Program-made: the position numbers and the translations under genes
NCBI GenBank assembly: GCA_029834535.1
Contig: JAQMWT010000424.1
Location: 56,419-120,418 of the forward strand
Reading direction: 5' to 3'
Length of the DNA: 64,000 nucleotides
DNA from: Chrysophaeum taylorii
Lineage: Eukaryota; Sar; Pelagophyceae; Pelagomonadales; Pelagomonadaceae
In this document: positions 31,846-64,000 of the stretch, piece by piece
How the letters are laid out: every line of letters begins with the position of its first letter
Numbering within the stretch: the stretch's first letter is position 1
The notes under the pieces: generated by a model
What the model was told of the DNA's origin: nothing
Databases searched by the model: none
The model's input: the letters and a program-made list of their open reading frames with translations, nothing else

Positions 31846-34800
31846 TCACGACGTGAGGTAACGAGCACGATGCCGGAGGAAGGAAGGAGCTTCCGTACTG
31901 CGGGTGAAAATATCGCTAAGGTTGTCAAGACGAGGAATGTGTTGGAGATCAATGATGCGGTTGCGATGATATTCGGCGGTGCTATAAAAACGAATGTGAA
32001 TATGGCGGGTGCGCCGTGTAAGACATTGGAGACGGACTTGGGTGACGGTGGTGCTATTATCGACATACATTGGTACCGTGTGACGAGGGAGATCAATGTC
32101 ATCAAAAAGTTTGAGAAGCCAAGAGAGCTCCGCAGTAGCGGCGTAAAGAGCGAGCAATTCAGCTTCAAAAGAAGAGCGAGCAAGTAGGTACTGCGAGCGG
32201 GAGCAGTAGGCTATCATAGAGCCAGCAAGGAGAAAACAAAATCCAGTTGTGGAGTGGCGGTCATCAGGGTCGTCGGCCCAGCTGGAGTCGGAATAACCAC
32301 AGAGACGAAGGGTAGAATCGCGACCAAGAATAAGGGCAAGATCCTGAGGACCGTTGAGATAACGCAGAGTGTGGGATAAAGCGTGCCAGTGGGGTTTACC
32401 AGGATTGTGTAAAAAACGCGCACACTGATTGACGGACCAAGTGATATCAGGGCGAGTCATAATGGAGATAAATAAAACACAGCCAACAATACGACGAAAA
32501 GGGATGCGCGCCATGAAGATGTGATCTGGAGAACCAGGAGCAGGACAATCAGCCGCAGAAAGACGAAGACCTTTGGGAGCGGGAGTCAGTTCAGGTTTAC
32601 TGTTGATGAAGCGATGTTCGGTAAGGATTTCACGGATAGCATGGGATTGGTCAAGAGTGAGTGTTCTCCGAGGGCGATCACGCGTAATGCGAAGACCAAC
32701 GTAAGTGGTGAGATCAAGCTCATTGACGTCAGTGAAGGTTCTGAAACGGAGGAAGAAGGCTTGGTAATGGCCAATGCAATGACGAGGGTGCGCCACAAGA
32801 AGATCATCAACGACAAGAACGAGACGTAGGACAACGGTAGAATTAAGCACGAGCTTGTAATGACAAGTGTCACCAGATCCGCGGACGAAGCCACAATCAT
32901 TGACAAGGAAGCGTTCCAAATAAAGCCACCAATTACGACAAGCTTGTTTGCAACCATACCAAGAGTGACGGAGCTTGTAAACGATTTTGGAACCATCGGT
33001 GGGTTGGCGAGGAGCATAGCCTTCGGGTGGCCAGACATAGATGACTTCGTCAATGGGAGCTTGGATAAAAGCGGAGCTGACATCCAACTTGTGCAAATCC
33101 CAGTCATGAACAGCGACAAAGGTTAGAAAGAAACGGATCGTGACGATGTTAGCAACCGGCGAGTAGGTGTCGTGATAATCAATGCCGTGAACCTGGGTGT
33201 AACCGCGGACAACGAGGCGAGCCTTGTACGATTTGAAGCGGCCAGAGTCATACTTCTTGCGGGGGATCCACTTGAGGGTACAAATGTTGCCAGAAAAAGT
33301 CGAAGGAAGGCGAACAACATCCCAGCAACCAAGCTGACCAAGGGAGTGATATTCTTTGGCGATGGCTTGCAACCAGCCAGGACGCTCAGGATTGGTTTGA
33401 GCTAAAGCATCACGTAAATGGGTGGAAGTAACGGTTGACTCGTCAATGTATGAATACTGAGAGGTTTCTTCGGAAGCAGAGTAATAAACATGTGCATGGG
33501 GATCAACAAGGGTGTTAGCTAAACAAAGGGGAAGGAAGGCATAATGAACTAACAAACGAAAGCTAGCATAAGAGACATACAAAGAGTGACAGGATGAAAC
33601 AGAAGCGACAGAGGAAACAGAATCGACACTGTGACAGGATGAAACAGAATCGACATTGTGACAGGATGAAACAAAATCGACATTGCGTTGTTGACAAACG
33701 CCAGTAACATTGCGTTGTTGACAAACGCCAGTATGAAAGTTTGTTGGTTTTTGTAATGCGCTTTGGTCGACTTTGCGCGGTCGGCCCCGTTTGGCTCGAC
33801 GTAATGGTGCACATTTCGTATTGTCTTTTGACGGTTGTGGTATTGTTTGAGGGGTGATCAGTCCCGATAAGACCGGCTCCTGAGCATCAAAAACAGAAGA
33901 CAAGGGAGCAACGGCGGAAGATAAACGAGGGTCGTAAAAAAATAAGTCAGGAAAACGAGAATCCACAAGAGGCGGAGGAAGGTGTTGAGAGGACAGAGAC
34001 TTACGCAGAGCAAAATTTTCGTCAAAAACAACGTCAATCGAGGTGTGGATGACGGGACCAGTGGCGCGTTGAAGCAATATGCGATATCCAGGGCCTGCAG
34101 AGGGATACCCAATGAAGATACCTGTTATAGCTTTGGTAGGCAATTTGTCGCCAGTAAGAATTGCAGCAGGACAGCCCCAAACACGAAGAAAATCGACACG
34201 GGGGAGAGTTTCATGTAGCATTTCATATGGCGTCATATATCCAGGGTTAGAGACGTTTGGCATGCGCTCAGAGATGAAGTCAGCCGTTTCCATGGGCCAA
34301 CGCCAAAAATCAGGTGGACTGTGCGCATGCACCAAAAGAGCGCGAGTAATATCAGCAGTGGCGCGATGAGAGCGTTCCACAACACCAGAAAAAGCGTGCG
34401 CCTGTGAAGTTTTGGACTGAGCTGCAGGAGCACGTTTGAGAGCGATGTTGTTGCCCAGACAGAAGGTTTCGAATTGGCCCATAAGAGAGCGGTCACGATC
34501 GGTGTAGATGAGGGCAATGCGATATCCAAATGGGCGAACCACGGTAGACAGAAAAAGTTCGAGTTGACGAGCGTTCGTAAGTGCATCGTGTCGTGGAGCA
34601 AAGTAACGTGTGCGGCGGATCATCGACAAACGTGAGGACCGCTCGGTCTTGATAAATGAAGGATGGGACGCCTGCAAACATGAGATCGGCGTGGATAATA
34701 AGGTAGGCCGCAACGGCACGTGGACGAGACAAAGGCTCGGAGGCAGGAAGCGAAGTGGAAGCGGAAGCATGTGCTTTACGTAGGCCAACATGCGCAGCAT

Positions 34801-35014
34801 GCATTTTACCTAGAGCACAAGCAGGACAAAAAGAAAGAGACGCGGAGCTCGGGAAAAGCGGTGCGCCAACAGCGAGAGAAGACAAACGTTGGATATAAGA
34901 GGGACTGTAGTGACCAAGACGAGCATGCCAAAGGTCGAAGGTAAGTTGAGTGCGTTGAGACACAGCGGGAAACGCACAAGGGTCATGGACGCGAGGGCAA
35001 GAAGAAAATGCCAC
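31846..35014 (-). pseudogene. Copia A pol: integrase, reverse transcriptase, RNase H
   Basis: An upstream frame (35014 to about 34630) has the pre-integrase HHCC region (LWHARLGHYSP...FCPACALGKMH) and the first integrase aspartate (IIHADLMF). A one-base shift near 34630 leads to the 984-codon frame with the second Asp (IYTDRDRSLMG) and Glu (GVVERSHRA). Reverse transcriptase follows (YKARLVVRGYTQ, DVSSAFIQAP, active site LVLVVDDLL where YVDD is usual) and RNase H (YSDSSWADDPDDRHSTTG, SRSSFEAELLAL). The single frameshift and the mild active-site change suggest a recently dead copy or a sequencing indel. Confidence 0.88.
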
Positions 35015-35659
35015 AAAAGGTGAAAGAAACGAAGTCCGCGTAGGGCGCAGCGGTCGTATTGCCGATCCAACAGACGATCAAAAGAAGACCACAGCGACGA
35101 AGCAGGGGAATAACGTGATGCGCTTGGCGGTGACGTAAAATGCGTTGCGGATGAGCAGGGCCAACAGCCTGAATTGTGTGGCAATCGTAACCAACTTGCT
35201 CAAGGGCATGATCCGAAAGAATCCGTTTGTCACCAAGGCCCGGAGAAATGAGGGTATGCGGGAACGCGACATGGATACCATGAGGGGCGGAAAGAGTGGG
35301 TCAGGAGGGGAGATGGTAGTGGAAGGTGGGACAGAGGTTGTGGTGGAGGGTGGCAACGAAAGAAGCGGCGGAGAGGGCTGAGATGGGGGCAAGAGTGGGA
35401 TGGGGGCGGAAAGATAGTTTTGGTAGAATGGTGGATGGGGCCGAGGTGGGTATTGGGGATTGAGTCGAGGTGGATAGTGGGGATTGGACCGAGGTGGGTA
35501 TTGAGGACGAGGGCGAGGGCGGACGGTGGCTTGTGAGAGCAAATAGCGCTGGCGCTTACGACAATCTTTCTGGTGATGGCCAGGAATACCACAAAAGTGA
35601 CAAAGGTCAGTAGGGCGTGGGCGCTTGCGATGGAAACCACGGGAAAATGAAGGCGAAGG

Positions 35660-36463
35660 TCAGTTACGGAAAGATGGGCGAAAAGATGGGCGAGGGCTAG
35701 AACGTTGTTGGGAGCGCAAAGCATTGAGGCGATGAAGGCATTTATCAGAAGGATGGTTGGTACGACCGCAAAAGTTGCAACGTTCACGATAGCGGGGACT
35801 TTCACGGAGCGTAGCATGGACAAGCGCAGACTTGGTCTGAAGATAATCGAAAACTCTACTGTTGAGGCGATCAACGAGACCATCATATGTGCGCAGTTTA
35901 GGGTCAAGTGCAATGAGATCCTTAGACAAGATCGAGTCGGGGATTTTCGTCTGAAGCAATTGCAATCTAAGAGTGTCAGGGAAATCTTGATGATGCCGAG
36001 CAACTTGAACACCAGTGATGAACTTGTTAAGAAAAGACTCAAGTTCATCGATATTGTTGCATACCAAGGAATGCAAGGAAGCAATTGCAGACTGAGCGAC
36101 ACGATCTCCATGGCCCATGTAAACATCGGTAATGCGCTTGTAAAGCCGCGTGAAGTTCATATCGCGGTTTTCACGGATATCCGCACGACCAGTATCATGC
36201 ATTGGTAGCGCCATGAACAATGCAGAGTACCAACGTTGCTGCTTAACACCAAATTCTTCTTCAGAGCAGCCAGAGGCGGAAATGCTAGTCCAAGTGTCGT
36301 TGGTCAAGATAATGCGATCACCGGTGGAAATGATCATGTTTTCCAGGCGCCGGGTCCATTGGTGAAAAAGATGTCGCTCACCGCTGAAGGCATCAAGTTT
36401 TTGCGAAAGCTTGCTATCTTTAATTTCGATCGAGGACATGACAAACGATAACGAACCGAACAC
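35660..36463 (-). CDS. Copia A gag with zinc knuckle
   Basis: 267 codons. A helical capsid-like region (LFHQWTRRLENMI..., MYMGHGDRVAQSAIASLHSL-like pattern) is followed by the zinc knuckle CNFCGRTNHPSDKC (C-x2-C-x4-H-x4-C) and a basic tail. The stretch 35015-35659 between gag and pol should hold the protease. It shows a Pro-rich tandem peptide (YPPRxNPxYPPR, about 35400-35520) but no clear DSG motif. Confidence 0.8.
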   Translation of the reverse strand: MFGSLSFVMSSIEIKDSKLSQKLDAFSGERHLFHQWTRRLENMIISTGDRIILTNDTWTSISASGCSEEEFGVKQQRWYSALFMALPMHDTGRADIRENRDMNFTRLYKRITDVYMGHGDRVAQSAIASLHSLVCNNIDELESFLNKFITGVQVARHHQDFPDTLRLQLLQTKIPDSILSKDLIALDPKLRTYDGLVDRLNSRVFDYLQTKSALVHATLRESPRYRERCNFCGRTNHPSDKCLHRLNALRSQQRSSPRPSFRPSFRN

Positions 36464-49860: not shown

Positions 49861-50859
49861 CAACAAGTGCAGGCCAATAAGTTCGCCAGTAAGTTCACCT
49901 AGTCCCAATCTCTAACCCCAGTAAGTTCACCTGGTCCCAGTAAGTTCACCTGGGACCCAGGAAGTTCACCTAGTCCAAATCTCTAACCACAGTAAGTTCG
50001 GTATAAACCCACTCGTGCTCACACCACTCCTTCGAGCTCGTCGCTGTCGCCTCCGCCAATCTAAGCTGCTTCGATCCGCACACGCCGCTAACCTTTCAGT
50101 TTACTCTATAACCCCCAGTAAGCTCACCTGGTCTCAGTAAGTTCACCTGGTTACTCAGTTCACCTAGTCCCAATCTCAAACCCCAGTAAGTCCACGTGGT
50201 CCCAGTAAGTTAACCTATAGTGCGCGTGTAGACGCCGGGAGGGGGCTTATCGGTATTGCGCAGCACGTGTGGGGTAGGGTGGAGTCGCCGACCCAGAAGA
50301 GGATATCCTCGGGGTTGCCCATCGACAGAGAGCCGCTTAGAGCTGGACGTGACAGAAGACGGGCTTGTGGGCAAGAGGACGCCGACCTCGCGGGGCGTCT
50401 GGCCCTGGCTCTTGGTGATCGTTTGGCGTCGGCGGGCCTTAAGGGATACAGGTTGGAGGAGCCTCGGTGACAACGACACGATCGATCATGTATCTGGTAC
50501 CGTTGCAGTGGCCGTGCGACGGGTCGAGGTTGCGAAGACTTTAAGCTCGCGATCAAAGTCAGCATGCCGTTGGTTGTCGGGGAGTCGAAAACTCGACTGT
50601 AAAGAGCGAGGCGTCGTCTTCCGACCCAACCTAGTCGGCCGAAAAGAACTCCGACGCCTCGTCTCCGGGAAAAAATGCCGCGGTCATGCGCGCGTTGTCA
50701 GCATCGACAACATCGTTTCGACGGGGCGTGAGAATGGCGCGCTGAAAGAGCCGCCGCGGGTCGTGGAAACAGTCTGCGAGGTCGCCGTAGACGGCTTGGA
50801 GGATCAATGCCTGCCTGGCTCGCGGGCCTACCTGATCCTTACCCTAAATCGGGGGACAA
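49861..50859 (-). mobile_element. Left arm of inverted repeat: decayed Helitron-type PIF1 helicase end
   Basis: About 1 kb that is the inverse of 52796-53807. The outer 350 bp carries many CAGTAAGTTCACCTGG/TAG repeats. Read on the minus strand, the inner part encodes PIF1-like helicase residues VYGDLADCFHDPRRLFQRAI, LTPRRNDVVDADNARM and, near 50430-50350, a KSQGQTPREVGVLLP segment, with stops between. PIF1 helicases of this type belong to Helitron rolling-circle transposons. Confidence 0.75.
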
Positions 50860-50973
50860 ACATCCTTCATGCTCCCCACACACACCCCCCTCTTAGCAGT
50901 CCTAACTACTAATCGACAGATGTTTGACAGTTTGTCTGTTTCAATGTTTGTCTGTTTGTTTGTTTGTTTGTCT
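50860..50973. repeat. Short inverted LINE 3' end and TTTG-rich tail
   Basis: 50860-50899 is a plus-oriented copy of the last 40 bases of the LINE found inverted at 50976-51020, so the two could pair as a hairpin across an 80-bp TTTG/TCTG-rich spacer. Confidence 0.75.
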
Positions 50974-52795
50974 TTAAATGTCGACTGCTAAGAGGGGGGT
51001 GTGTGTGGGGAGCATGAAGGATGTGGGTGGGTTTGAGGTGTATGAGGGATGTGCCTGACGGGCGGAGATAAGTACGCGGGACCTAGTCGGGGTCATCGCC
51101 GAGGCGTGGGGCAGGCGAAGAGAGGACGGGCCCCGCCCGTAGGTCGTACGCATGCTGCCGCCGGACGTATGTGCGACGAAGGGTGACGTCCTGCTGGGAT
51201 CGGGCGGCCTGGGTGGGGTTCCCCGAGGCGGCGACATGGGTGAGGGCGGTGAGGGCACAGCGAGCCCGGCCTAATGCGTTGGCGATCCCCCACTCACGGT
51301 AGATGCGGCGAGTTTGGGCCGCCTTTGCCTCTGTGAAGTTGGCGCAGCCGCTTGTCACCCAGGTTCGCGCAGCGATGCGCTCTGCGCATGTTTGGGCGAG
51401 AGCGTGGCACGCCGCGCTGGCCTCACCGAAGGCACCAAAGACGAGGCCGGCGACGGTGCCGTAGCTACGTAGCCGCTGTTCGACAGGGCCCAAGAAGCCA
51501 GGCGGTGGTGCTGTACCCGGCTGGGGGATGATGGCGTCGATGCCGCGGGCGTGAGCGAGGTATTCGGAGTGGACTTGCGCTGCGCGCCGATCGACAGGCG
51601 ACGGGTGGGAGGGATGGAGGGCGTGGGCGGTGTACAACGAACCCCAAGCGAGGGTTTTGATGTCGTAGAGTTGCTCCTTGTTGTCGAGCGTGGTGAGGAT
51701 GTCTGGGACGACTTGACGTCGGGCGAGATTGCCTCGGTACCGGCCGTAGAGGCGCGTGCGAATGGTAGGGGCGACGACGTCAGCAAAGATGCCGAAAACC
51801 TCGGACAGGGCTGGGATGCCGGCCTCTTTGACGCTGCCGTGGACGCAGTCGAGCTGGCCGTCATGCCAGGTGGTCCGCGCTCCTCCGCGGTTGACAAGGT
51901 TGGCCTGCGTGAGAAGCACCTTGCCGTGAGCGTCGAGAACGACGTCAGTGCCCAGAATGCGAGTGCCCACGAGGCCCAAACAAGCTGGAGAGGGGTAGCC
52001 AAAGTACTGGGCACACATCTCAGCCCAGCAGCGGTTGGGGATTTGAAGGGCGGAGCTGGGCCACGAGCTGATGAACGTGGTCGAGAAGCGATCCCATGAG
52101 GACGCCGCTACTCGAAGTGCTTCGGTGATGGGAAGGGTGGCCGCAAGGCGCTGGAGTGCAGTGGCCCGAGCTGTCTCGCGCTGGGAGGTTAGAGCACGGA
52201 GGTTAGAGCACGCTGGAGTTGGGGTATGAGCACGGGTGTCGAGATGGTGGGGTCGACGAGGACGCCCATGGAGACGAATTCGTGGGAGAGAGGACCGTCG
52301 ACGAGATGAACGTTGGCGGGGTCGCCGGAACCAGCGCCGCCGTGGGAAGCCAGCGTGGTACGGAGATCAGCCCGAAGTCCGTCCCACGCAGTCTCGAGTG
52401 CTCGCCCCAGGCGGCAACCGGATGCGAGGAGGTGGTGCCAACGGTGCAACTCGTTACCTGTGCGAAAAGAAGTGGCACCCAGGACCGAGGCGAGGCGGGG
52501 GAGGTAGCCAGGGACCTCCACGGCACCCGTAGGATCGCGAAGGTCGACGAGGTGTGGGAGGGCCTGGGCCGCCGTGCCAACAAAGGCGGCGGGGCTGAGG
52601 TCGGCGCAGGAGCGAATGCCGCCACCCCCACTTCGAGCAGGAAGACGGAGGCGTTGGAGGACGATGCCGGTGGAGTCAAAAACCTGACGCGGATCTGCGC
52701 CAAGTGTTGTGGCGACGAAGCTGAGGACGGCAACGTCGAAGCGGCGGAGCGCGCTCAAGGCATTGGTGGGGTAGCAGTGTTGCGTGATGTAGTTT
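50974..52795 (-). mobile_element. 5'-truncated non-LTR retrotransposon with restriction-like endonuclease
   Basis: Minus-strand coding starts abruptly at the Helitron arm (52795). The first part resembles the region after the reverse transcriptase in algal LINEs (RLPARSGGGGIRSCADLSPA then AFVGTAAQALPHL). The second (52018-51083) has a PD-(D/E)xK-like site (VVPDILTTLDNKEQLYDIKT) and GPVEQRLRSYGTVAGLVFGA, as in elements that cut target DNA with a C-terminal restriction-like endonuclease. A tandem 14-bp duplication at about 52184-52211 (GGAGGTTAGAGCAC twice) breaks the frame between the two parts. The 3' end is CTTAGCAGTCGACATTTAAA. Confidence 0.75.
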
Positions 52796-53807
52796 GTTTG
52801 TCCCCCGATTTAGGGTAAGGATCAGGTAGACGCGCGAGGTAGGCATTGATCCTCAAGCCGTCTACGGCGACCTCGCAGACTGTTTCCACGACCCGCGGCG
52901 GCTCTTTCAGCGCGCCATTCTCACGCCCCGTCGAAACGATGTTGTCGATGCTGATAACGCGCGCATGACCGCGGCCTTTTTTTCCCGGAGACGAGGCGTC
53001 GGAGTTCTTTTCGGCCGACTAGGTTGGGTCGGAAGACGACGCCTCGCTCTTTACAGTCGAGTTTTCGACTCCCTGACAACCAACGGCATGCTGACTTTGA
53101 TCGCGAGCTTAAATTCTTCGCAACCTCGACCCGTCGCACGGCCACTGCAACGGTACCAGATACATGATCGATCGTGTCGTTGTCACCGAGGCTCCTCCAA
53201 CCTGTATCCCTTAAGGCCCGCCGACGCCAAACGATCAACAAGAGCCAGGGCCAGACGCCCCGCGAGGTCGGCGTCCTCTTGCCCAAGCCCGTCTTCTGTC
53301 ACGTCCAGCTCTACGTGGCTCTCTGTCGATCGCCAACCCCGAGGATATGCTCTTCTGAGTCGACGACTCCACCCTACCCCACACGTGCTGCGCAATACCG
53401 ATAAGCCCCCTCCCGGCGTCTACACGCGCACTGTAAGTGAACTTACTGGGACCAGGTGAACTTACTGGAACCAGGTGAACTTACGGAGGTTAGAGATTTG
53501 GGACTAGGTGAAATTAGTGACCAGGCGAACTTACTGAGACCAAGTGAACTTACTGGGGTTTTTAGAGTAAACTCAAAGGTTAGCGGCGTATGCGGATCAA
53601 AGCAGCTTAGATTGGCGAGGGTGAGAGGGACGAGCTCGAAGGAGAGTGGGGTGAGGGGACGTGAGCACGAGTGGGTTTACGGCGAACTTACTGGGGTTAG
53701 AGATTGGGACTAGGTGAACTTCCTGGGTCCCAGGTGAACTTACTGGGGTTAGAGATTGGGACTAGGTGAACTTACTGGCGAACTTACTGGCCTGCACTTG
53801 TCGACAT
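52796..53807 (+). mobile_element. Right arm of inverted repeat: decayed Helitron-type PIF1 helicase end
   Basis: Mirror of 49861-50859. On the plus strand it keeps the helicase C-terminal motif TINKSQGQTPREVGVLLPKP and VQLYVAL (about 53240-53320), aligned to PIF1's QGQT...GVYLP...QLYVALSR. The outer part again has the GTGAACTTACTGG repeats and ends CTTACTGGCCTGCACTTGT. Internal stops and frameshifts mark it as dead. Confidence 0.78.
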
Positions 53808-53937
53808 TTAAAGACAAACAGACAGACAAACATCTGTCGATTAGTAGTAAGGATAATCAATCCTTTGGCTGAAAACGAGTTGAGAGGCGCAGACTTTATG
53901 TTTTTTCCAGTACCCATACATCTGCTTTTTTTGATAT
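53808..53937. other. LINE tail remnant and unassigned spacer
   Basis: Starts GTCGACATTTAAAGACAAAC and continues with ACAGACAAAC repeats to CTGTCGATTAGTAGTAAGG, matching the inverse of 50905-50990: a tiny LINE 3' end abutting the arm. The rest is unassigned. Confidence 0.6.
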
Positions 53938-54202
53938 ACAAGTGCAGGCCAGTAAGTTCACCTAGTCCCAATCTCTAACCCCAGTAAGTTCACCTGGGAC
54001 CCAGGAAGTCCACCTAGTCCCAATCTCTAACCCCAGTAAGTTCGCCGTAAACCCGCTCGTGTTCACGTCCCCTCACCCCACTCTCCTTCGAGCTCGTCCC
54101 TCTCACCCCCGCCAATCTAAGCTGCTTTGATTAACCTTTGAGTTTACTCTAAAAACCCCAGTAAGCTCACTTGGTCTCAGTAAGTTCACCTGGTCACTAA
54201 GT
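53938..54202. repeat. Third partial copy of the arm terminus
   Basis: ACAAGTGCAGGCCAGTAAG onward repeats the outer 265 bp of the left arm in the same orientation, then stops at GGTCACTAAG. The helicase part is absent. Confidence 0.8.
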
Positions 54203-54495
54203 GCAGAGAAATCTGCTGCCTCTTACCCTTATCCGTCCGTTGAGAACGTGGTCTCTTCCTTACCCTTTCTTCTTCCTTTCTACACAACCAAATAGTCCTC
54301 TGATTCGTGCTTACACGCATCATCATGGTCTAGCGCGTCCCTAGGTATTGCAGAGAAATCTGCTGCCTCTTACCCTTATCCGTCCGTTGAGAACGTGATC
54401 TTTTCCTTACCCTTCTTCTTCCTTTCTACACAATCAAATAGTCCTCTGATTTGTGCCTACGCTCATCATCATGGTCTAGCGCGTCCCGAGGTATG
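54203..54495. repeat. 147-bp tandem duplication
   Basis: Two copies (54203-54349, 54350-54495) starting GCAGAGAAATCTGCTGCCTC and ending with TAGCGCGTCCC; they differ at about ten bases. Confidence 0.85.
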
Positions 54496-54956
54496 TAGCA
54501 CTATACACTTAACCTTTCTCGTGTATTGCTAGATGCCGCCTGCCGTGATCTGAGGATATAGGGAACATAACCGTTCATTCCCCGAATTGACCTTCCAGAC
54601 GTTCACGATGAGACGGGATGGTTTCCCAGGTGACTTACCACTGCTTGCTAAATGCTCTGCAGGATATGGGCCCAGGCGGGTCCCTGAGAAACCATGTGGT
54701 AAAACGTGCACGTAGCCTATGGGTTTTGAACAGTTACCGCGCCAGCCCAGCCTCGCCATGTGACACGCTTGTCAATACATCGCCATTACCATTAGGCTGT
54801 ATATAATATCTTTTTGCACACGTGATCGTGTAACCTTGTGTGCACCTGTTCATAGTATCGTATTGTCATGTCAATGTTGATGTGTGTGTAATTGGCTAGC
54901 CTGTACTCTTGCACACATGTTATGGAATATTTTGGGTTCGTCCACTCGTACATTCC
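54494..54956 (+). repeat. Candidate 5' LTR of copia C
   Basis: Begins TGTAGCACTATACAC and ends GTACATTCCA. It is followed by TGGTAATGCACTTAACAGG, a possible primer-binding site starting TGG. A TATATAAT sequence lies at about 54791-54799. The partner LTR lies outside the window, so the limits are unproven. Confidence 0.35.
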
Positions 54957-55243
54957 ATGGTAATGCACTTAACAGGCTCCTTGAGAGCACCAAAACTAAC
55001 CAGCTGCCTGAGTGACTGCGCTTAGCGACACTACTCTGGACTCACAGCTTGCACAGTCGTCATATAGACACATTTTCCATCGAAAAAATCGATGAGTGTA
55101 CATAGACACCGATAGACAGACCCCCTTAGAATGTCTAGACAGTGTCAACTGCGTGACTGAACCCACAGGTTCCCCGTCAACTGCTATGGCAGAACACGCA
55201 CGCAGCACGAGCCGCACCCAAGGCGATCACAGGTACGGATATA

Positions 55244-57565
55244 TTGAAGCTCGAAGCTCCTGTAGTTGAGTTTCTTAACGATGGAAATCGATTTCAGCTT
55301 CAGACTCGCAAGGTATCCTTGCAAATCAAGCACATTAAGCAACTGTTACGGTCCAGTCATGCCGATGCCTTCCTCGAGTACGACTCGACGAAGCATATAC
55401 TCGGTCATGCAAGGACTACGAGATCCTCCGGAATCAAATTCTCGATCGCGTTTTCCTGGAATGGAAGACCGATAGGGCTGCTGATCTCCGTTTAGCTATT
55501 GATGAATTGCCCCCTGAGTATCAGGAATGGCATTTCACCAACGAAGCTTTCCCCCCACTTACCTGATGCAGAAGTAGCTCAGCTAGCTACTGTCTGTTAC
55601 GACTATGAAGTCAAGGCATTACGTCCTGAAATCAATGCCCGTTTCTTAGAAGAGGAACGAATCTTAAATCGCGCGCACCCGAAGGCATTAGCTTTCGACA
55701 CCCGTGTTCGTACCCCTGTTACCATGTTTTCGTTAACTGCTGCTGACTGGCACACTTATCAGAAAACGTATGCTACATTCTTGCATAGTTACTTCAATCT
55801 TGAAAGTGTTGGAAAACCAGCACTTGCGGCCTGGCCCGCCATCAATGAGATATACAACAAAAGCTATTTACCCAACAAGGCTCGAGCTATTATGCTCATC
55901 GCCTTTAGTCACTACGAGTCTGTTACGACTACTGATGTGTCTTACTTGAAACAGCAATTTAACTCTGTTGTTTATAATCCTAACTGGTATGTCCATGTAT
56001 TTATCGAAGCTGTCCTAGCATTTAGGCAAATCTCTTACCAACTTAACCAGGAAGAGACTGACCTTCAATTCGACTTTGGCACTCTTTGCAGGAAAATCTA
56101 TGAAGAGATACATCGGCACTATGCCGATAATACCAGCAACAACCGTTATGATCGTGGTTGGGTAGATTGGTGTTATATGTATGAAACCCGATCTTCATCT
56201 CGGCCTGTGCCAGAAGCTGAACGATTGTGTCACCCTACCAACCCTAGCTACATTTTAGAATACGCATTAGACCTATACAATGTAGTATCAAATGGGTCGA
56301 ACAAAAGACGCTTAGAACGCCCTGTTTCTTGGCAACCCTATGTCGAAGGTTTATCATCTCAACCAAAGCCAAAGTTACTACTTACAAACACTTTGGATTC
56401 AGCAGACAAAAGTCTGACTCAAACTGCTAACACACTCGCCTTCATCACTTCGTCCCAACCTGGTACATCTTCCACGTTTAATGCTAGACGCTTGCGTAAC
56501 TCTAATGATGCTCGCCAGCCTTTCTCTCGCAGCGATTTATCGTATTATCGTTCTGGTGATTCTTACGTCACCAAGAAAACTGCTGGACAGTCCCATGACC
56601 GTCCAATTTACCCCCGCACTTTTGACAGGTCCTCTCGGTCTAACATGAAATTATTAGATCGAACAAACCACACCTTAAACACCCTGCGAGAACAGTGTAG
56701 TGAACTTACGAAGCGTGTGACAGATAATGATACCACGGCTCAGCTACAACTGAATATTAACAAGTTATTTGAGACTCTATTACAATCAGCTGACATTCTG
56801 TCAACGACATCGACCAAGGACAACCGTAGTTTACTTCGTCTAAACGAACAACTCATGTTCGTAGAAGACATCATTTATGATGTGGACGTTCATCTATCCT
56901 CGACCGAAAAGTCGTTAAACTACGTGGAGCCACAACACCATACTGTTGTTACTGCTCCCACCCCAAAGGCAACTCCTCCTACTACAGACACGAAGAATGC
57001 CCCCAACACACAGGGTAATCCTTCCAATATTGTGCCTAACCTCTTTACTGCTTCCGCCATCTCGGCTTTACCACCAGCGTTACTGTCCTCGCTATCTTCA
57101 CAGGTCCAATCTGCCCTCAACTTACCACCACAAGCCGAAACCAAAAGGGATGCCGATCATACTTCGCTATCGTCATTTGATGAAAAGCACGGCATGGCTG
57201 ATGATGCTGACGAACCATCACCACCTGTTCAACCGATTATTATTCCAACGAACCTGCTATTGCTGGAGAACGTCTTCACGGCCAGCCTCTCCTCCACTTG
57301 CACACATTCGGAAAACGCCTTCCTCACCAACTACATGAAGGTAAACAGTGTCTCTCCACATTGCTCTTTTCTATATTTTGACTCTTGTGCTACCATCTCA
57401 TTGATGTCCACTTACGATTTTTCAATACCCAACCATATTATTCCACTGGACTCCAAATACGCGCCGATTGTTATTCAAACCGCCACTGGACAACAACGTG
57501 CCTCACACATGATGTTGACACGTAACATTGCTGTTCCCCTACCAGATCATCCACAAGCTGGCTGA
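55244..57565 (+). pseudogene. Copia C gag and protease
   Basis: Two frames joined by a shift near 55470, then 688 codons. The first part is helical gag (YEILRNQILDRVFLEW, ELPPEYQEW; later WHTYQKTYATFLHSYF, AWPAINEIYNKSY). A long polar linker follows. A protease-like site FDSCATISLMS lies at about 57375-57407, where the active-site Gly of D-S/T-G is replaced by Cys, followed by VIQTATGQQ. No zinc knuckle is seen. The STEKSLNYVE motif at about 56901-56930 lies just before the protease region. Confidence 0.7.
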
Positions 57566-57956
57566 CCGACATCTCGCTATCCTGAGCACGCTCGAGTGGA
57601 ACCAGACGAACCTGACCACTGTGTTCAATGATCGAGCTGAGCCAAAGCTTAGCGCTGTCACGAGCCGCATAGACAAAGATGTACGTATTCCCATACACTA
57701 CACAGCAGCTAATTTACCTGCTCTCCCTTGTCTCACTTACAACATCGCTCGCGACAAGCAGCTCGAACTTCGTTCCCTCGCATTTCCCCTCAAGCGATAC
57801 CATGAAAACAGGGATCTACTGGCATACTACAACTACCTACTCCAAAGAGTTTTACCAGATCGCCCGTGGATTCGCCCTTTGGTTCTCAATCTTCGGAAAC
57901 AGAACAAGTTTGTTCAGCAAAATACGCAGCCATTAACTTGACTACTCTCACGCCCA

Positions 57957-58582
57957 GTGTTTCTCTCACAAGAGTCCAATCTCCGCAAACCCTCTGTCAT
58001 GTTACTTTGTTCTGGTTTGTCAACTCCGGCGTTCCTGTCTCAAGCCACTAATGACTTAGGCTTAAATATCAATGTAAAAGTTGTTGTTGAGTCTGATGAT
58101 ACGCTTGTTCGAATGTTACGCCACCGTTTCCCTACTGTATTATTATTTGAATCTCTCCCCGCCTTTATTAACCATCTTCACCTAATTTCACCAGAGGAAA
58201 GGCGCACATTCTATTGTGATATAATTGAGATCACTCCTCCCTGCACGAACAGGAATCTACTAAAGCAGCATAAGACAGAAGACTTACACAGCCTGCTGGA
58301 CGATTCTCTTTTCGACAGCATGCTGTCTGTCATCAAGTTACTCCAGCCCTTGGTACTACTGGCTGAGATGACGCCTGCATAAGTACTGTCATCAAGACCA
58401 CATCACAGTGGCCAACCTTATCCATGCTACACTTGATTACTGTGTCGATGTTGTTGATAGGTTCCCGACCTACATCTGTGGCGACTACCAATCTAGAGAA
58501 AGATGGATATGCATCGCACGCAGGTATTCTACTGGGCCAATTAAAATATTGTCGTGGCTATCCTCCATCCACGCCCCTTCCT
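57957..58582 (+). pseudogene. C5 DNA-cytosine methyltransferase domain inside copia C
   Basis: Frame 57957-58376 then, after a one-base slip, 58378-58578. Motif I VMLLCSGLSTPAF (58 kb; compare LFDGIATG of DNMT3-like enzymes); SAM-pocket acidic segment VKVVVESDD; motif IV ITPPCTNRN with the catalytic Cys codon at 58242-58244; motif VI LLAEMTP in place of ENV; DHITVANLIHATLDY; motif VIII GDYQSRERWICIARR (QxRxR, Q codon at 58489). Spacing of the catalytic Cys to QxRxR is about 82 residues, as in the family. Motifs IX-X (GNSV) were not found; they may lie in the frame-broken part downstream. It would methylate cytosine in DNA. With the frameshift and a later stop it is probably inactive in this copy. 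Confidence 0.75.
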
Positions 58583-60012
58583 AAAGATCGTGGATGATCT
58601 ACAAGCTATTCAAGCGCCTTTGGCTACCTAAACACGTATCCAAAGACTGGATCCGGGTGTTCCCCGATCCTCCATATATCCCCGTTCCTAAAACGTTTGC
58701 ACCTTACTCTCGCACAGGTTCTGCTCAGCTTACTATGGCTGACCTTGAATCCCTCAATATGTTACTGCTTCGCCTTCACTCACAACAGGCTCATGAGCAA
58801 CGTACTCACTCTGTTCAATCCGAGTGTACTTATCATCAGCTGTGCTTTAAACGCTCCTCTATGGAGCCACTACCCAATGCAACCTACCCTATACATGTCA
58901 AGGTTTTTACAATCCTCTATAACTTGTTTGCCAGCTTACACACTAACTCACCCACTCCTGTGTCCTATTACATAACCGTTTTCGAAACTAACCAACCGTC
59001 ACACAGGTTACTACTTACAACCTCATCAACATCACACGACTCCCACTTCTTAACTGGTGGCCACCACTCTGACGGCAACCTCACCATAGAGAACGCCACC
59101 ACCAAATATCATGCTCTATTGACGCGTTTGGAAGCACGTATACGTTCACTGCTTCCGACATTCCCGCGACGCGACAGGTCCATATATTTGGAGCCGTTTA
59201 TGGGTTATTGGGATAGTCCAAGCCCTTCCCAAGTTGGTCTGCTGCCACCCATGGCACCGCCATACCAAAGCTCTTGTCCAGATGCTCTTGTGATGCCTGG
59301 CTGCCTTACTACAAGGCCACCGACAATTCTTTCGACTACAAAGATTCTCATTTTGCTCTGGACTCTCTACTCCAGACCTCCCATCACCCACCGTCCATCA
59401 CGGCTCACGCTTCACCTTATCAACCGCCACTGCTCTTGTCATCTGCAAATCACCGCAAACTTGTCCACGCATGACCTGTCCTCGTCTTCTGCTTACTGAG
59501 CGCAGCTCGACTTTCCTGCTAATGGCCATCCCGACAGCACCTCTCCGACTCACAAGTGTTATGCCTCTCATCAACTTCGATCATTTGCTCTGGAAGATCA
59601 CCACTTATCTCATAGTCGCTATATAGGTACCTTCGTGGAAGTGACCGCAAACTCAGCTCTAAAATCCACTCCATGCTTGCTCCATTGCCACCGTCCGAGG
59701 GTATGCCAATATTATTTTACTCGACCCTCGCAACGGGAAATTACGCTACCCCACTCGACCGGAGTTGATTCGTGCTAACAACCACACCAAACAACAGGAA
59801 TCTTTCCTCTTGTCTCTACGCCATGACCTTTGCTGTGACATGCTCAGCAATGCTCTGCCTGCCGGTACGTACAGCACTCTGTACAAGCACCTTTCGCTCC
59901 TCGTTGCCGATATTAAATCCCTTATGTTGGACCCTACCTTCCAACATACTGCTGCCGTGACGAAGAAATCCTATGTATCCAATTTCATGACCGTTGATCA
60001 AGCTTCCACCAC
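58583..60012 (+). other. Unassigned internal part of copia C
   Basis: Open frames at 58594-59499 and 59765-60052 continue coding-like composition (for example WLPKHVSKDWIRVFPDPPY, RSIYLEPFMGYWD) but match no domain I can name. By position it could hold the methyltransferase target-recognition end plus a linker to integrase. Confidence 0.5.
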
Positions 60013-61474
60013 GTGCAGCACAGATACCTTGTCTTTGGCACAATCTTTATGATGTCTATTTCCAGCAACTGCTTGACCGAAATGTCGTTAAACTATATAT
60101 CTTCGTCCTACGAAGATACTCTCGTTACTCGTGATGATGAGGATGCACCTCCAAGTGACCCTGCTGCGCACCAGGATGACGACGCACCGCCTTCCCCTGC
60201 CTTAGACACCGAACTCAAGTTCGATGTTCGGCGCAAACGGCATATTCCCGCTCATCCCATTCCTCGTAAGTCCCTCGCACACGGATCCACCGAATATCTC
60301 AATGCCAAAGAACGTGCCAATCGCTTCCACCGGGTGCATCACTGCCCCGACAACGTCGCTGCCAAGGCCCCCAACGTACTTGCTCGCCCTGGATTCTCTG
60401 CTTCTGACATACCATATCGCGACTTATGCACCGACTGCATCGCACACAACAAGCGCCACCCGCACAAGCATTTCAATGCGACCAAGCCTTCTTTGAGCAA
60501 ACTCACAAAGCCGGCGAAGTCTGGGCGTGCGACGGCGGCTATGTGACCATCCCATCCGAATGGGGAGGCTTCACACATATCATCGTCTTCAAGGAACTCA
60601 TTTCGAAATTTCTCTTGGTGTACTTTACACGCACCACCAACGCCACGGAGTTCACTCAAGCTCTGGATTTTGTGTATGACTTCTGTCGTACACAACTCAA
60701 CGTGCACATGCGCACCCTCTACTCCGATGCCTTCAAGCCCTACTTTAGCCAGCACATTACCTCCCCGTACCGCGTCGATAAGGGCATTCAACTCATCGCT
60801 TTCCCGCCGTACATGCACCACTTTAACTTTGAAGTTGAGTCCGCCATCGGTTTCATCGCCCCGCCTCCTCAACTCGCCTTCGTTCTCTCCTTAATGCTCA
60901 CTATCGTGGCGCCAAGATCGTGGAACCAGCCATCATGTTTCCGTGGGCGGTGATACACACCGTTCAAAGCTACAACCTTCTCCCGAACGCCACGCTCGAG
61001 CGCATTCATCATGCTATCCTGAGTCCGCAACAGCTACTCTACAACCAACTCAACACTCCCCAACATGACATGCTCAAGATTTTGGCGCTGAATGTTACCT
61101 TCTATTGGAGCCCCATGAACACCACAAGTGGGAACCGTGCCGCCGCAAATACTTATACATCTGTTGCGCCAACGCGCAAACCCGCTCGTCTCCCCACGCG
61201 TCGACCATCTGCTGACGTCGTCCTCAACCCTGAAAACGGACAAATTCGTGTTTCGTCCAAGCTGCAATTCCTCTACATGCTTCAGCATCCTACTCCTGAT
61301 CCTGAACTTGCTCCTCCGCCTCACGCTCCTCCCGCGCCTTTCTCGCTCACACCCCACGCCGCTATCCAAGACCATGTCATTCAGAGGGGGACACGGACTA
61401 CTCATCCTCCGAGGGGGCACTCCCACCTCCTTCAGCTCTTCGTCCCCTGCTCCTGCCTCTTCTCCCTCTTCTGA
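60013..61474 (+). pseudogene. Copia C integrase
   Basis: HHCC pre-integrase (FHRVHHCPDNV ... LCTDCIAHNKRH, about 60325-60450). After a shift comes the rve core: first Asp in WACDGGYVTIP (60531), second in LYSDAFKPY (60726), Glu in FNFEVESAIG (60837). The following frame has the post-core helix FPWAVIHTVQSYNLLP and SPQQLLYNQL. The LTEMSLNYIS motif (60070-60099) lies before the HHCC region. Confidence 0.82.
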
Positions 61475-62159
61475 CACCTCGCCGACGATTCTGGCTCTAT
61501 GTCACCGCCGCCCTTGCTTCCTTCTTACAAAGACCTTTTGCACAAGATGACCTCATTCTTGTCCCAGGTTCCAAACAGCCCAACACCCGCAAGGCAACTT
61601 CTATGAAAATATCCAAGCCCGGCTGCAAGCGTCTACTATTGGTGCTTACAAAGCCGCTGGTGGCAAACTCGCCGATTTCCGCTGGGATCTTCGCCACCAC
61701 TTCCTTACGTTCAAGTCTCCCGCCCTCTCCGCCCTTCATATCAATGGTGGTATCCGCTGGTCTGCTATCTGCTCAGAGGGGGAACATGCGTTGTTAGCTC
61801 GTCTTCTCCCGTTGCGTACTGACTTAATTGCCCGCTACCCGCACGTCGATGGTCACTTCGCCCACGCCAAGTGCGCATCCAGCATCCCAGCTGCAACCTT
61901 TCTAACTGCTGATGGTTCACCTACGTGCCCCATTCATCGGCCCCTTTTATCTGCGTTCACTGAGCACGCTGCTGCCTTTGGCACTTCTTCCTTACAATAT
62001 GCACTTACGTACCTGGCGCCGACCAGCTTTATTGATCACAACTCCTCCGAGTTTGGCGCTACTTCTGCATCTCTGGCTGACTTGGAGGAATACCTTCTGG
62101 TCTCTACAGAGTTTATTACCCAGGTCTTACACCGACCCTACTATCCATATTCAACTGGA

Positions 62160-63919
62160 ATCTGCCTCTACTACTCCTACTGACGCTGTTTCCGCTTATC
62201 CCGAAGTTGCGCACACTGCCTCGACCGCAACGTCGCTAAACTATAATTCACCAGCCACTGTTGGTCCTGACGAATATAAGGTCCAAGAAGCGGACGTTTC
62301 CATTGACGAATATAAACTCAAGTGCCTCCACGGTTTGTCGCCTGAAAACAGGCACGCCTACCTCAAGGCCATCGCCAAGGAACTCCACGACATTATCCGC
62401 TTTGGCTGCTTCAAACTTTCCTTACCCGACGGTGTCTCTCGTTCTATTGACAGCAGGATGGTGCTGAAGATTAAAACAGACTCTGCAGGCAATACGTTAA
62501 GCACAAGGCTCGCCTCGTGCTACGTGGCTTCCTAGCATCTCTTGGCGCCGATTTCTTTGGCACCTTCAGCCCCATGGCCACCATGACCGCAATCCGGGTA
62601 CTACTAGCTATTGCAGCATACAAGCAATTGCCTGTCTACCATGCAGACGTCCCGAACGCCTTCGTTCAGTCGGACATTGATGCCAACGTCTATGTTCAGT
62701 TACCAGACGGCATCAAGCTTATCGACCCCGATGACGCTAAGTACAAGGGCCGACGTCTACCGAAACTGCTGAAGTCACTTTAGACTTCGGCAATCACCAT
62801 CTCTTTGGAACAAAGAGATAGACGGCTTCTTCCGTAGCCTTGGCTACAAACGCCTGCATTCGGACTCTTGCCTATATGCTCGAGTATCCGCACATGCTAA
62901 GTTCGTCGTATGCAGTCTGTCTGTAGACGACATTGTTATTGTGTCCAATGACGACCCTCTCTGTAATTGAACTACAGGATGCCCTCCACAAACGGTATGC
63001 TGTGAGCAGTTTGAACCCGTCCATACCCTTTGGCAAGCTGGTGTTCATGCAAGTTGCCTGCAGACCTGACTTCGCAAGCCTTGGCAGATGTTCGCGTGGT
63101 ATGCATGCACCCACGTATGTTCACGTCCAAATGCTAGAGCATTTGCTTCTACTCAAGAAGCCGGAAAACCGCTCACTTCGCCTCTGGTTCCATCCTAAGG
63201 TAATGCCATTGAAGCTCACCTTCGCACTGTCTCCGCTAATCGAATTGATCTATCCACTGTGGTCGACTACCAACCGCAGGATGTATCTACTGGACAGTTT
63301 GACCCCTTAGTTGCCATGGTTGACGCTGACAACGCCCCTTCCTTAGCACAGGAAGATAGGAAATCTACCACCGGGTTTGTCTTCTATCTTTTCAACTGGC
63401 TTATTGGTTGGAAAAGCAAACTTCAACCGATTGTCTCCTGCTCAACTCACGAAGCTGAGTTGATTGCCCTCAGTATTTGTGCTGATGAAGCTGTTTGGCT
63501 ACGCAAGCTGCTGTTGGAACTCTCCTTTGTCGTCAACCCCACCTTCTACGTCAACAATTCTAATGGTGAGAACACCGCTGACCCTGTTGACTTCGATGAC
63601 AATGACAACCCAACTGCTGAAGATATGCGCTTCATCAGAAGCCTACCTCTCTTGTCTGACAATGCTGCCGCTGTTCACCCCTCTAATAACCCAGATGGGT
63701 CCTCATAACCCAGATGGGTCCTCTCGATCCAAGGCACTGTCAACCAGATGGTTTAAAATTCGTGATTACATATCGCTTCAGAAAATACGAGTCCATCAAG
63801 TTCCCGGCAAGCTAAACGTGGCGGATGGTTTTACAAAGCCACTTGCTGCTGAGTTCTCCACCTTTCGCTCTCTACTCGGTATGCATCATGCCTCTGACGA
63901 CAATCCTTTACAGGATTGA
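62160..63919 (+). pseudogene. Copia C reverse transcriptase and RNase H
   Basis: STATSLNYN (about 62220-62247) precedes AIAKELHDIIRFGCF and SRMVLKIKTDSAG. After a shift come KHKARLVLRGF, YHADVPNAFVQSDIDANVYV and, at about 62905-62945, the active site SLSVDDIVIVSND (SVDD for YVDD). RNase H follows: VDADNAPSLAQEDRKSTTGF, ISCSTHEAELIAL-like segment, and WFKIRDYISLQKIRVHQVPG with TKPLAAEF at the end. At least four frameshifts. It stops at 63917-63919. Confidence 0.85.
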
Positions 63920-64000
63920 AGATGCCTAACCCTAGTGACCGCAACGTCGTTTAACTGTCCCCTAGCCCTGGCCTACCTTCTTTTGCCAGAATTTTTTTGT

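Follow-up and report, generated by a model that had tools for sequence, protein, structure and literature searches.

The last 9 kb of the window, by which we mean the whole stretch of 64,000 nucleotides analysed here, are occupied by a Ty1/copia element on the + strand, the window itself being the end of contig C424 in a genome of 70.8 Mb. The element represents a Ty1/copia family (family A) whose pol starts with a divergent, selectively maintained cytosine-5 methyltransferase (C5-MTase) domain, which may methylate the element's cDNA or its insertions. This reading is probable as a whole, and its parts differ in strength. Judging from its sequence, the MTase domain is likely to be a functional enzyme, and self-methylation of the element's cDNA or insertions is a plausible, still tentative, role for it.

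Architecture of the copia element

The window copy is broken, with several reading-frame changes. Its gag and protease part (55157..57565, + strand) is split between frames 55157-55495 and 55496-57565 and includes a protease-like DSCAT (57380-57394, + strand), which we take to be a DSGAT-type copia active site; the gag/protease frame 55496-57562 gave no Pfam match in a search of window pieces. Comparison of copies reveals a conserved in-frame TGA (57939..57941, + strand) immediately 5′ of the MTase frame. The first half of the C5-MTase domain (57942..58382, + strand) carries motifs I, II, IV and VI, the last as EMT, and the second half of the catalytic domain (58383..58594, + strand), which lies in another frame in the window copy, carries motif VIII. 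A C-terminal continuation of the MTase region (58585..59499, + strand) may comprise a target-recognition region and motif IX/X-like elements, as judged by eye only. Further downstream on the + strand lie the integrase core (60408..60953; PF00665, E 3.3e-4, 21.3 bits, under the 32.6-bit cut-off), the copia reverse transcriptase (RT; 62475..62783; PF07727, E 1.7e-18, 67.5 bits, over the cut-off) and an RNase H-like end of pol (63199..63919, frames 63199-63708 and 63464-63919), the last recognized by eye, with no Pfam match for 63199-63705. The integrase thus stands upstream of an RVT_2 RT, in the Ty1/copia order, with the RT over the curated cut-off and the integrase under it. These two matches confirm the identification as a copia element made in an earlier interpretation of the same DNA (the sequence-only reading).

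A search of 50000-64000 for long terminal repeats found nothing of 40 nt or longer repeated between the two ends of the element; the window stops at the contig end. Nested direct and inverted repeats at 50000-54500 adjoin the element (arms of 308 nt at 99% and 184 nt at 98%). Two other features of the window deserve mention. The − strand at 31846-36439 carries another copia element, in which no MTase was noticed and which serves here as a control. At 25929-28622 lies a gene, presumably nuclear, whose product resembles DNA gyrase subunit A, a hint of an organelle with bacterial ancestry, for example a plastid.

The methyltransferase region is a repeated part of pol

In the window copy, the first half of the domain displays a motif I-like LLCSGLS (SGLS at 58011-58022), a motif II-like VVVESDD (E at 58089), a motif IV ITPPC (PPC at 58236-58244) and a motif VI LLAEMTP of the LLAEMTPP type (AEM at 58362-58370), in which EMT stands instead of ENV. 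Motif VIII (GDYQSRERW, with QSRER at 58489-58503) is out of frame with the others, a frame shift having occurred between 58371 and 58480. The two halves are contiguous in natural copies such as L002, L011, L014, L016 and L018, and L002 carries all the MTase motifs in a single 478-aa frame.

The initial 146 residues encoded by the MTase frame recur at no fewer than 150 genomic places, window included (150 of 817 candidates were scored), all with E <= 3.7e-74 and 88-100% identity, some of them with an internal stop. Family A loci were read in 30 rows that represent 29 distinct places, window included, one place being present twice. Motifs I to VIII fall within one uninterrupted frame in most of these 29 places; L025 stops earlier, and a deletion in L021 fuses the MTase to the integrase. 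Repetition of the stretch at at least 150 genomic places, together with the same motif order in two remote relatives described below, places the motifs beyond chance. In three copies, the MTase and a PF00665 match share the same open frame (L011, E 5.3e-4; L013, E 0.0015; L014, E 1.5e-5; all under the cut-off), and PF00665 reaches E 0.059 in L012 and gives no match in the searched piece of L016. Since the frame of L011, L013 and L014 runs from the MTase into the integrase match, the MTase belongs to pol and is not an insertion into one copy. The position between protease and integrase proposed by the sequence-only reading is therefore upheld, both in the window and by these shared frames, and so is its EMT-type motif VI, whose Glu is present in 29/29 copies.

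Homology to C5-methyltransferases

Among the matches listed in protein searches, two remote relatives were found: P0001 (MMETSP transcriptomes, 41% identity), a predicted complete ORF with 4 member sequences that begins with Met, and P0002 (ENA, 38% identity). Both present the motifs in the same order as the element, with APC replacing PPC in one of them. An alignment of five rows (P0001, P0002 and three natural copies) shows SGLS, ExD, DIxEITxPC, LAEMTPPH and GDxQxRxRW common to all, and the window piece carries SGLS, ExD, DIxEITxPC and LAEMTP. A protein search with the family A alignment returned P0001 and P0002 only, among the best 8000 candidates by shared words, and none of the pattern matches to relatives was confirmed in viral_contigs (0/77) or genome_contigs (0/23).

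It is through these relatives that the link to known enzymes is made. P0001 matches PF00145 with E 4.4e-4 (20.2 bits, below the 22-bit cut-off) and P0002 with E 6.1e-5 (23 bits, above it), and the two match a PHROGs DNA methyltransferase family at 3e-8 and 4.6e-7, respectively. A profile built from P0001, P0002 and the window piece has two cytosine-specific MTases as its top matches among solved structures (E 0.0047 and 0.027), the next being unrelated (E 0.28). The element's own sequence had no Pfam match in five natural copies or in the window pieces, no match to NCBIfam MTase models for three natural copies, and no MTase in a phmmer search of the PDB; the PHROGs match of L002 is weak (E 0.017, a single family listed, no stretch passing by itself). 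The C5-methylase profile match that the sequence-only reading had called for in a consensus of intact copies is, for single copies, absent from Pfam searches and present in their remote relatives, and the C5-methylase domain itself is borne out by the PF00145 and PHROGs matches of those relatives. On this sequence evidence, the element domain is almost certainly homologous to C5-MTases.

A second copia family with a related methyltransferase

A genome search with PF00145 returned 124 match rows, among which no recognisable family A was found and from which the window contig was absent. A family B-like profile range characterizes 56 of the rows, and 13 such loci (L033-L045) were read. PCQHLS and SKxRY occur in the printed frame of 12 of the 13, L040 being a downstream part only. 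Motif VI is ENV in 11 of the 12 readable loci (ENA in L037), QxRxR is absent and replaced by SKxRY in 12/12, and GGLHQEGF is visible in 7 loci. By its sequence, then, family B is closer to the canon at motifs IV and VI and departs from it through the loss of QxRxR.

Family B is also a copia family. L050, situated downstream in the frame of a family B copy (C314), contains a copia RT (PF07727, E 1e-28); L050 is also matched by the integrase piece of family A (28% identity over 106 aa, E 2e-10). In an hhalign comparison (probability 93.4%, E 2.4e-7), the MTase profile of family A is collinear with that of family B over 208 columns, motif facing motif, and family B itself matches PF00145 at about 1e-8. 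The RT of family A is closer to that of family B (49% identity over 74 aa) than to that of the MTase-less window copia (31846-34800; 36% over 83 aa). Given the MTase alignment and the closer RT, the simplest reading of the sequences is one old MTase capture in a common ancestor of families A and B. A protein search with family B gave nothing at E <= 1 among the best 8000 candidates by shared words.

Substrate, catalysis and selection

Carried by a retrotransposon, such a domain could have RNA rather than DNA as its substrate. DNMT2 methylates tRNA, and pol products act on both RNA and cDNA. An RNA methyltransferase would act on the genomic RNA of the element or on its primer tRNA, aiding RNA stability, packaging or priming; we consider this unlikely, although the domain is encoded in pol and the signs of CpG decay are equivocal. 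The window element has a CpG observed/expected ratio of 0.92, and the median for the MTase region is 0.78 (30 rows). Elsewhere in the window the ratio is 1.33, the MTase-less window copia has 1.09, and family B and C loci have 0.99-1.31. The CpG depletion that the sequence-only reading suggested looking for is thus present in mild form, but has no clear specificity to MTase-carrying elements, in view of the value for the MTase-less copia. Transition differences among 24 family A copies are asymmetric: C before G gives 0.042, the second lowest of eight contexts, and G after C gives 0.088, the highest, the other six contexts ranging from 0.039 to 0.065. The two-sided excess expected from heavy CpG methylation was not found among these copies, and CpG decay gives self-methylation no clear backing; another target context, an RNA substrate or little deamination would fit the pattern equally. 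In the sections of PMC5890265 considered here, RNA methylation is also offered for a LINE-type enzyme that was inactive on DNA in yeast. Against an RNA substrate stand the names of the matched families and of the two best solved structures, all DNA or cytosine-specific MTases, with the reservation that superfamily profiles cannot separate substrates.

Equally improbable, in our estimation, is a loss of catalysis, the domain with its EMT and changed motif I being retained to bind nucleic acid or to act as a scaffold within the particle. The Asn of ENV is Met in all five alignment rows. Motif I is SGLS, with a single G, in 28/29 copies and SALS in one, whereas the canonical C5-MTase motif I, an FxGxG-like SAM site, has two. 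The five natural copies without a Pfam match and the disappearance of QxRxR from family B point the same way. Yet motif II ExD is kept, and family A retains the catalytic Cys of motif IV in 29/29 copies, the Glu of EMT in as many and QxRxR in 28/29, in a favourable sample of best-match and long-frame copies, window included; P0001 and P0002 also have the Cys, and QARER at motif VIII. The sequence-only reading had made its case depend on conservation of Cys and QxRxR between copies, and on these counts both are conserved. The ENV of 11 of the 12 readable family B loci (again excepting L037) likewise argues against decay of the active site.

Between two family A subfamilies, pN/pS is 0.10 for codons 16-205 (23 × 5 copies, 115 pairs, pooled; median dS 0.48, dN 0.033) and 0.26 for codons 206-300, indicating weaker constraint on the latter. 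Within the larger subfamily (253 pairs), the corresponding values are 0.22 and 0.37. For family B, 5 copies compared in 10 pairs give dN/dS values of 0.07-0.15, with dS above 1 in some of them. The copies in these comparisons are related and were selected by quality of match or length of frame, which means that the samples are not independent; even so, such sequence-derived pN/pS and dN/dS ratios would not be produced by neutral decay alone.

That a copia-specific linker merely resembles a methyltransferase by chance can be given almost no credence, for although neither Pfam nor NCBIfam yields an MTase match for the element itself, its relatives match significantly in two libraries (PF00145 and PHROGs) and its profile is collinear over 208 columns with a family that itself matches PF00145.

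A gypsy-like family and host-like enzymes

Of the PF00145 rows, 63 of 124 have the profile range of a third family (family C), which matches the start of the profile only (E 0.0014-0.0114 in the genome search) and of which three loci were read; the remaining 3 rows are C57 and two of C260. L046, L047 and L048 contain VVMLFSGAGGSTLGL or a similar sequence and SPPC, with SRxRLL in L046 and L048 and ENV in none of the three. PF00145 matches L046 with E 1.7e-5 and L048 with E 4e-9. Adjoining L046 are a gag-/protease-like frame (L049, judged by eye, no Pfam match) and an RT (PF00078, E 1.3e-5, 25.5 bits, below the 29.6 cut-off). By eye, and from sequence, family C thus appears to be a gypsy-like element with its MTase between the protease-like part and the RT. 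The family C MTase profile does not match that of family A (0.3%) or family B (0.1%), and no single origin is therefore claimed for all three families. Searches of solved structures with the profiles of families B and C gave nothing (E <= 0.01 and <= 0.1).

Two further C5-MTases are host-like. L032, a 2086-aa frame, has 7r76 as its best solved match (E 4.7e-128), an entry listed in the PDB as DNA repair protein Rad8 and which we take to be Cryptococcus DNMT5; L031 has DNMT2 as its best solved match (E 3.9e-39). DNMT5 is a maintenance enzyme. On the presumption that 7r76 is indeed DNMT5, this enzyme and the MTase of the element share the C5-MTase superfamily, but here DNMT5 is represented by the host-like L032 and, compared as profiles, it and the element's MTase match only weakly (6%, E 0.0063).

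A conserved TGA, 20-nt repeats and a possible route to self-methylation

The TGA preceding the MTase frame is present in 26/29 distinct copies (27/30 rows). The codon that follows it in these 26 copies is CTA in 19, ATA in 3, ATG in 2, CTG in 1 and CCA in 1. TGA-CTA is a leaky stop context; since P0001 begins with Met, translation restart after the TGA is also possible.

A 20-nt motif, GACCGnAAnGTCGnTnAACT, occurs four times in the window, with 0 expected, each time within the element and at a domain border. It reads TxxS[LF]N[YC], and T-x-x-S-L-N-Y lies in an open frame at three sites. All four repeats are on the + strand: the first (T-E-K-S-L-N-Y, 56902..56921) before the protease, the second (T-E-M-S-L-N-Y, 60075..60094) between the MTase region and the integrase, the third (T-A-T-S-L-N-Y, 62223..62242) between the integrase and the RT, and the fourth (63937..63956), which would read T-A-T-S-F-N-C, 3′ of the pol stop, the last two being described from the window only. 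Repeat 1 is exact in 27/29 copies and was not found in L014 and L025. Repeat 2 is present in 18 of the 19 copies extending that far (not in L021, which has the deletion), plus L002, and 17 of these 19 are identical. The 20-nt repeat was not found in family B and C loci. Sliding-window DNA conservation did not single out the repeats (site 1, 210/1128 windows equal or more conserved; site 2, 172/1277), for which reason their exact recurrence alone is claimed; we think that misaligned copies blurred this test.

If the SLNY sites are protease cleavage sites, the MTase would be a separate mature protein. A possible sequence of events can then be proposed, in which the MTase domain would be made at the gag-protease/pol boundary marked by the conserved TGA, freed by the element's protease at the repeated SLNY sites and carried in the particle. 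There it might methylate de novo the element's own cDNA, or later the new insertion. A DNMT5-type maintenance enzyme of the host could keep these de novo marks, and new copies would then acquire an inherited chromatin state.

Relation to known elements and implications

The element combines the features of a retrotransposon-encoded DNMT, namely a DNMT-like domain in a retroelement frame, many copies and purifying selection. Precedents from dinoflagellates and a charophyte alga, invoked by the sequence-only reading, are indeed published, but in the portions of PMC5890265 considered here they are LINE and DIRS elements in Symbiodinium and Gypsy in Klebsormidium, not Copia, and Symbiodinium Copia 'lacks any DNMT domain'. 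According to the same portions, a DIRS-type retrotransposon DNMT can methylate CG de novo, and an enzyme of the LINE type left DNA unmethylated in yeast, with RNA methylation offered as an alternative. KnitGypsy-Dnmt3 of Klebsormidium nitens, as presented there, resembles the present element in being of LTR type, in encoding its DNMT domain within Pol and in showing purifying selection; it is a Gypsy of the Dnmt3 clade, not a Copia. SymbioDIRS-Dnmt3 and SymbioLINE-Dnmt (same portions of PMC5890265) share with the present case many copies, conserved key residues and more than one element class per genome, but they are DIRS and LINE elements instead of Copia.

According to a 2025 paper (PMC12344493), which cites PMC5890265, 'LTR Copia and DIRS' elements harbour DNMT3 members; Copia may have been written there in error for Gypsy or may reflect an observation of that paper's own, and this is the sole statement found against novelty in Copia. 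The sections considered of PMC9998398, PMC12477816 and PMC11453091 do not mention a Copia-borne C5-MTase; those of PMC12477816 describe a DNA transposon with a protein comprising ParB and an N4-cytosine or N6-adenine MTase. An orchid Ty3/Gypsy with an m6A RNA demethylase domain (PMC9289625) is another LTR retrotransposon that gained a nucleic-acid-modifying enzyme, albeit with the opposite chemistry and another substrate. Measured against open-licence full texts, DNMT-bearing retroelements are known, and what appears new is a Copia with a divergent MTase, in a genome where three or more retroelement families carry an MTase.

Cytosine methylation is usually something that hosts do to transposons. 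The strong selection recorded in the sequence of the MTase-like domain raises the possibility that epigenetic marks are written by the element and do not only silence it. A broader reading of the sequences, which we regard as doubtful, extends this to a genome in which the host-like enzymes that can be named are of DNMT5 and DNMT2 type. Most of the C5-MTase-like sequences found sit in retrotransposons of at least three families, two related copia and one gypsy-like, and new methylation might come mainly from these elements. They would mark their own new copies, host maintenance would keep the marks, and the pair would shape which insertions are tolerated; the EMT copia enzyme would represent an undescribed branch of the superfamily. 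In only 70.8 Mb, a Copia clade has retained a divergent MTase and a gypsy-like family carries another, and the question at stake is what an element gains from its own DNMT. Because MTase-carrying and MTase-less copia elements lie in the same window, that gain is directly testable.
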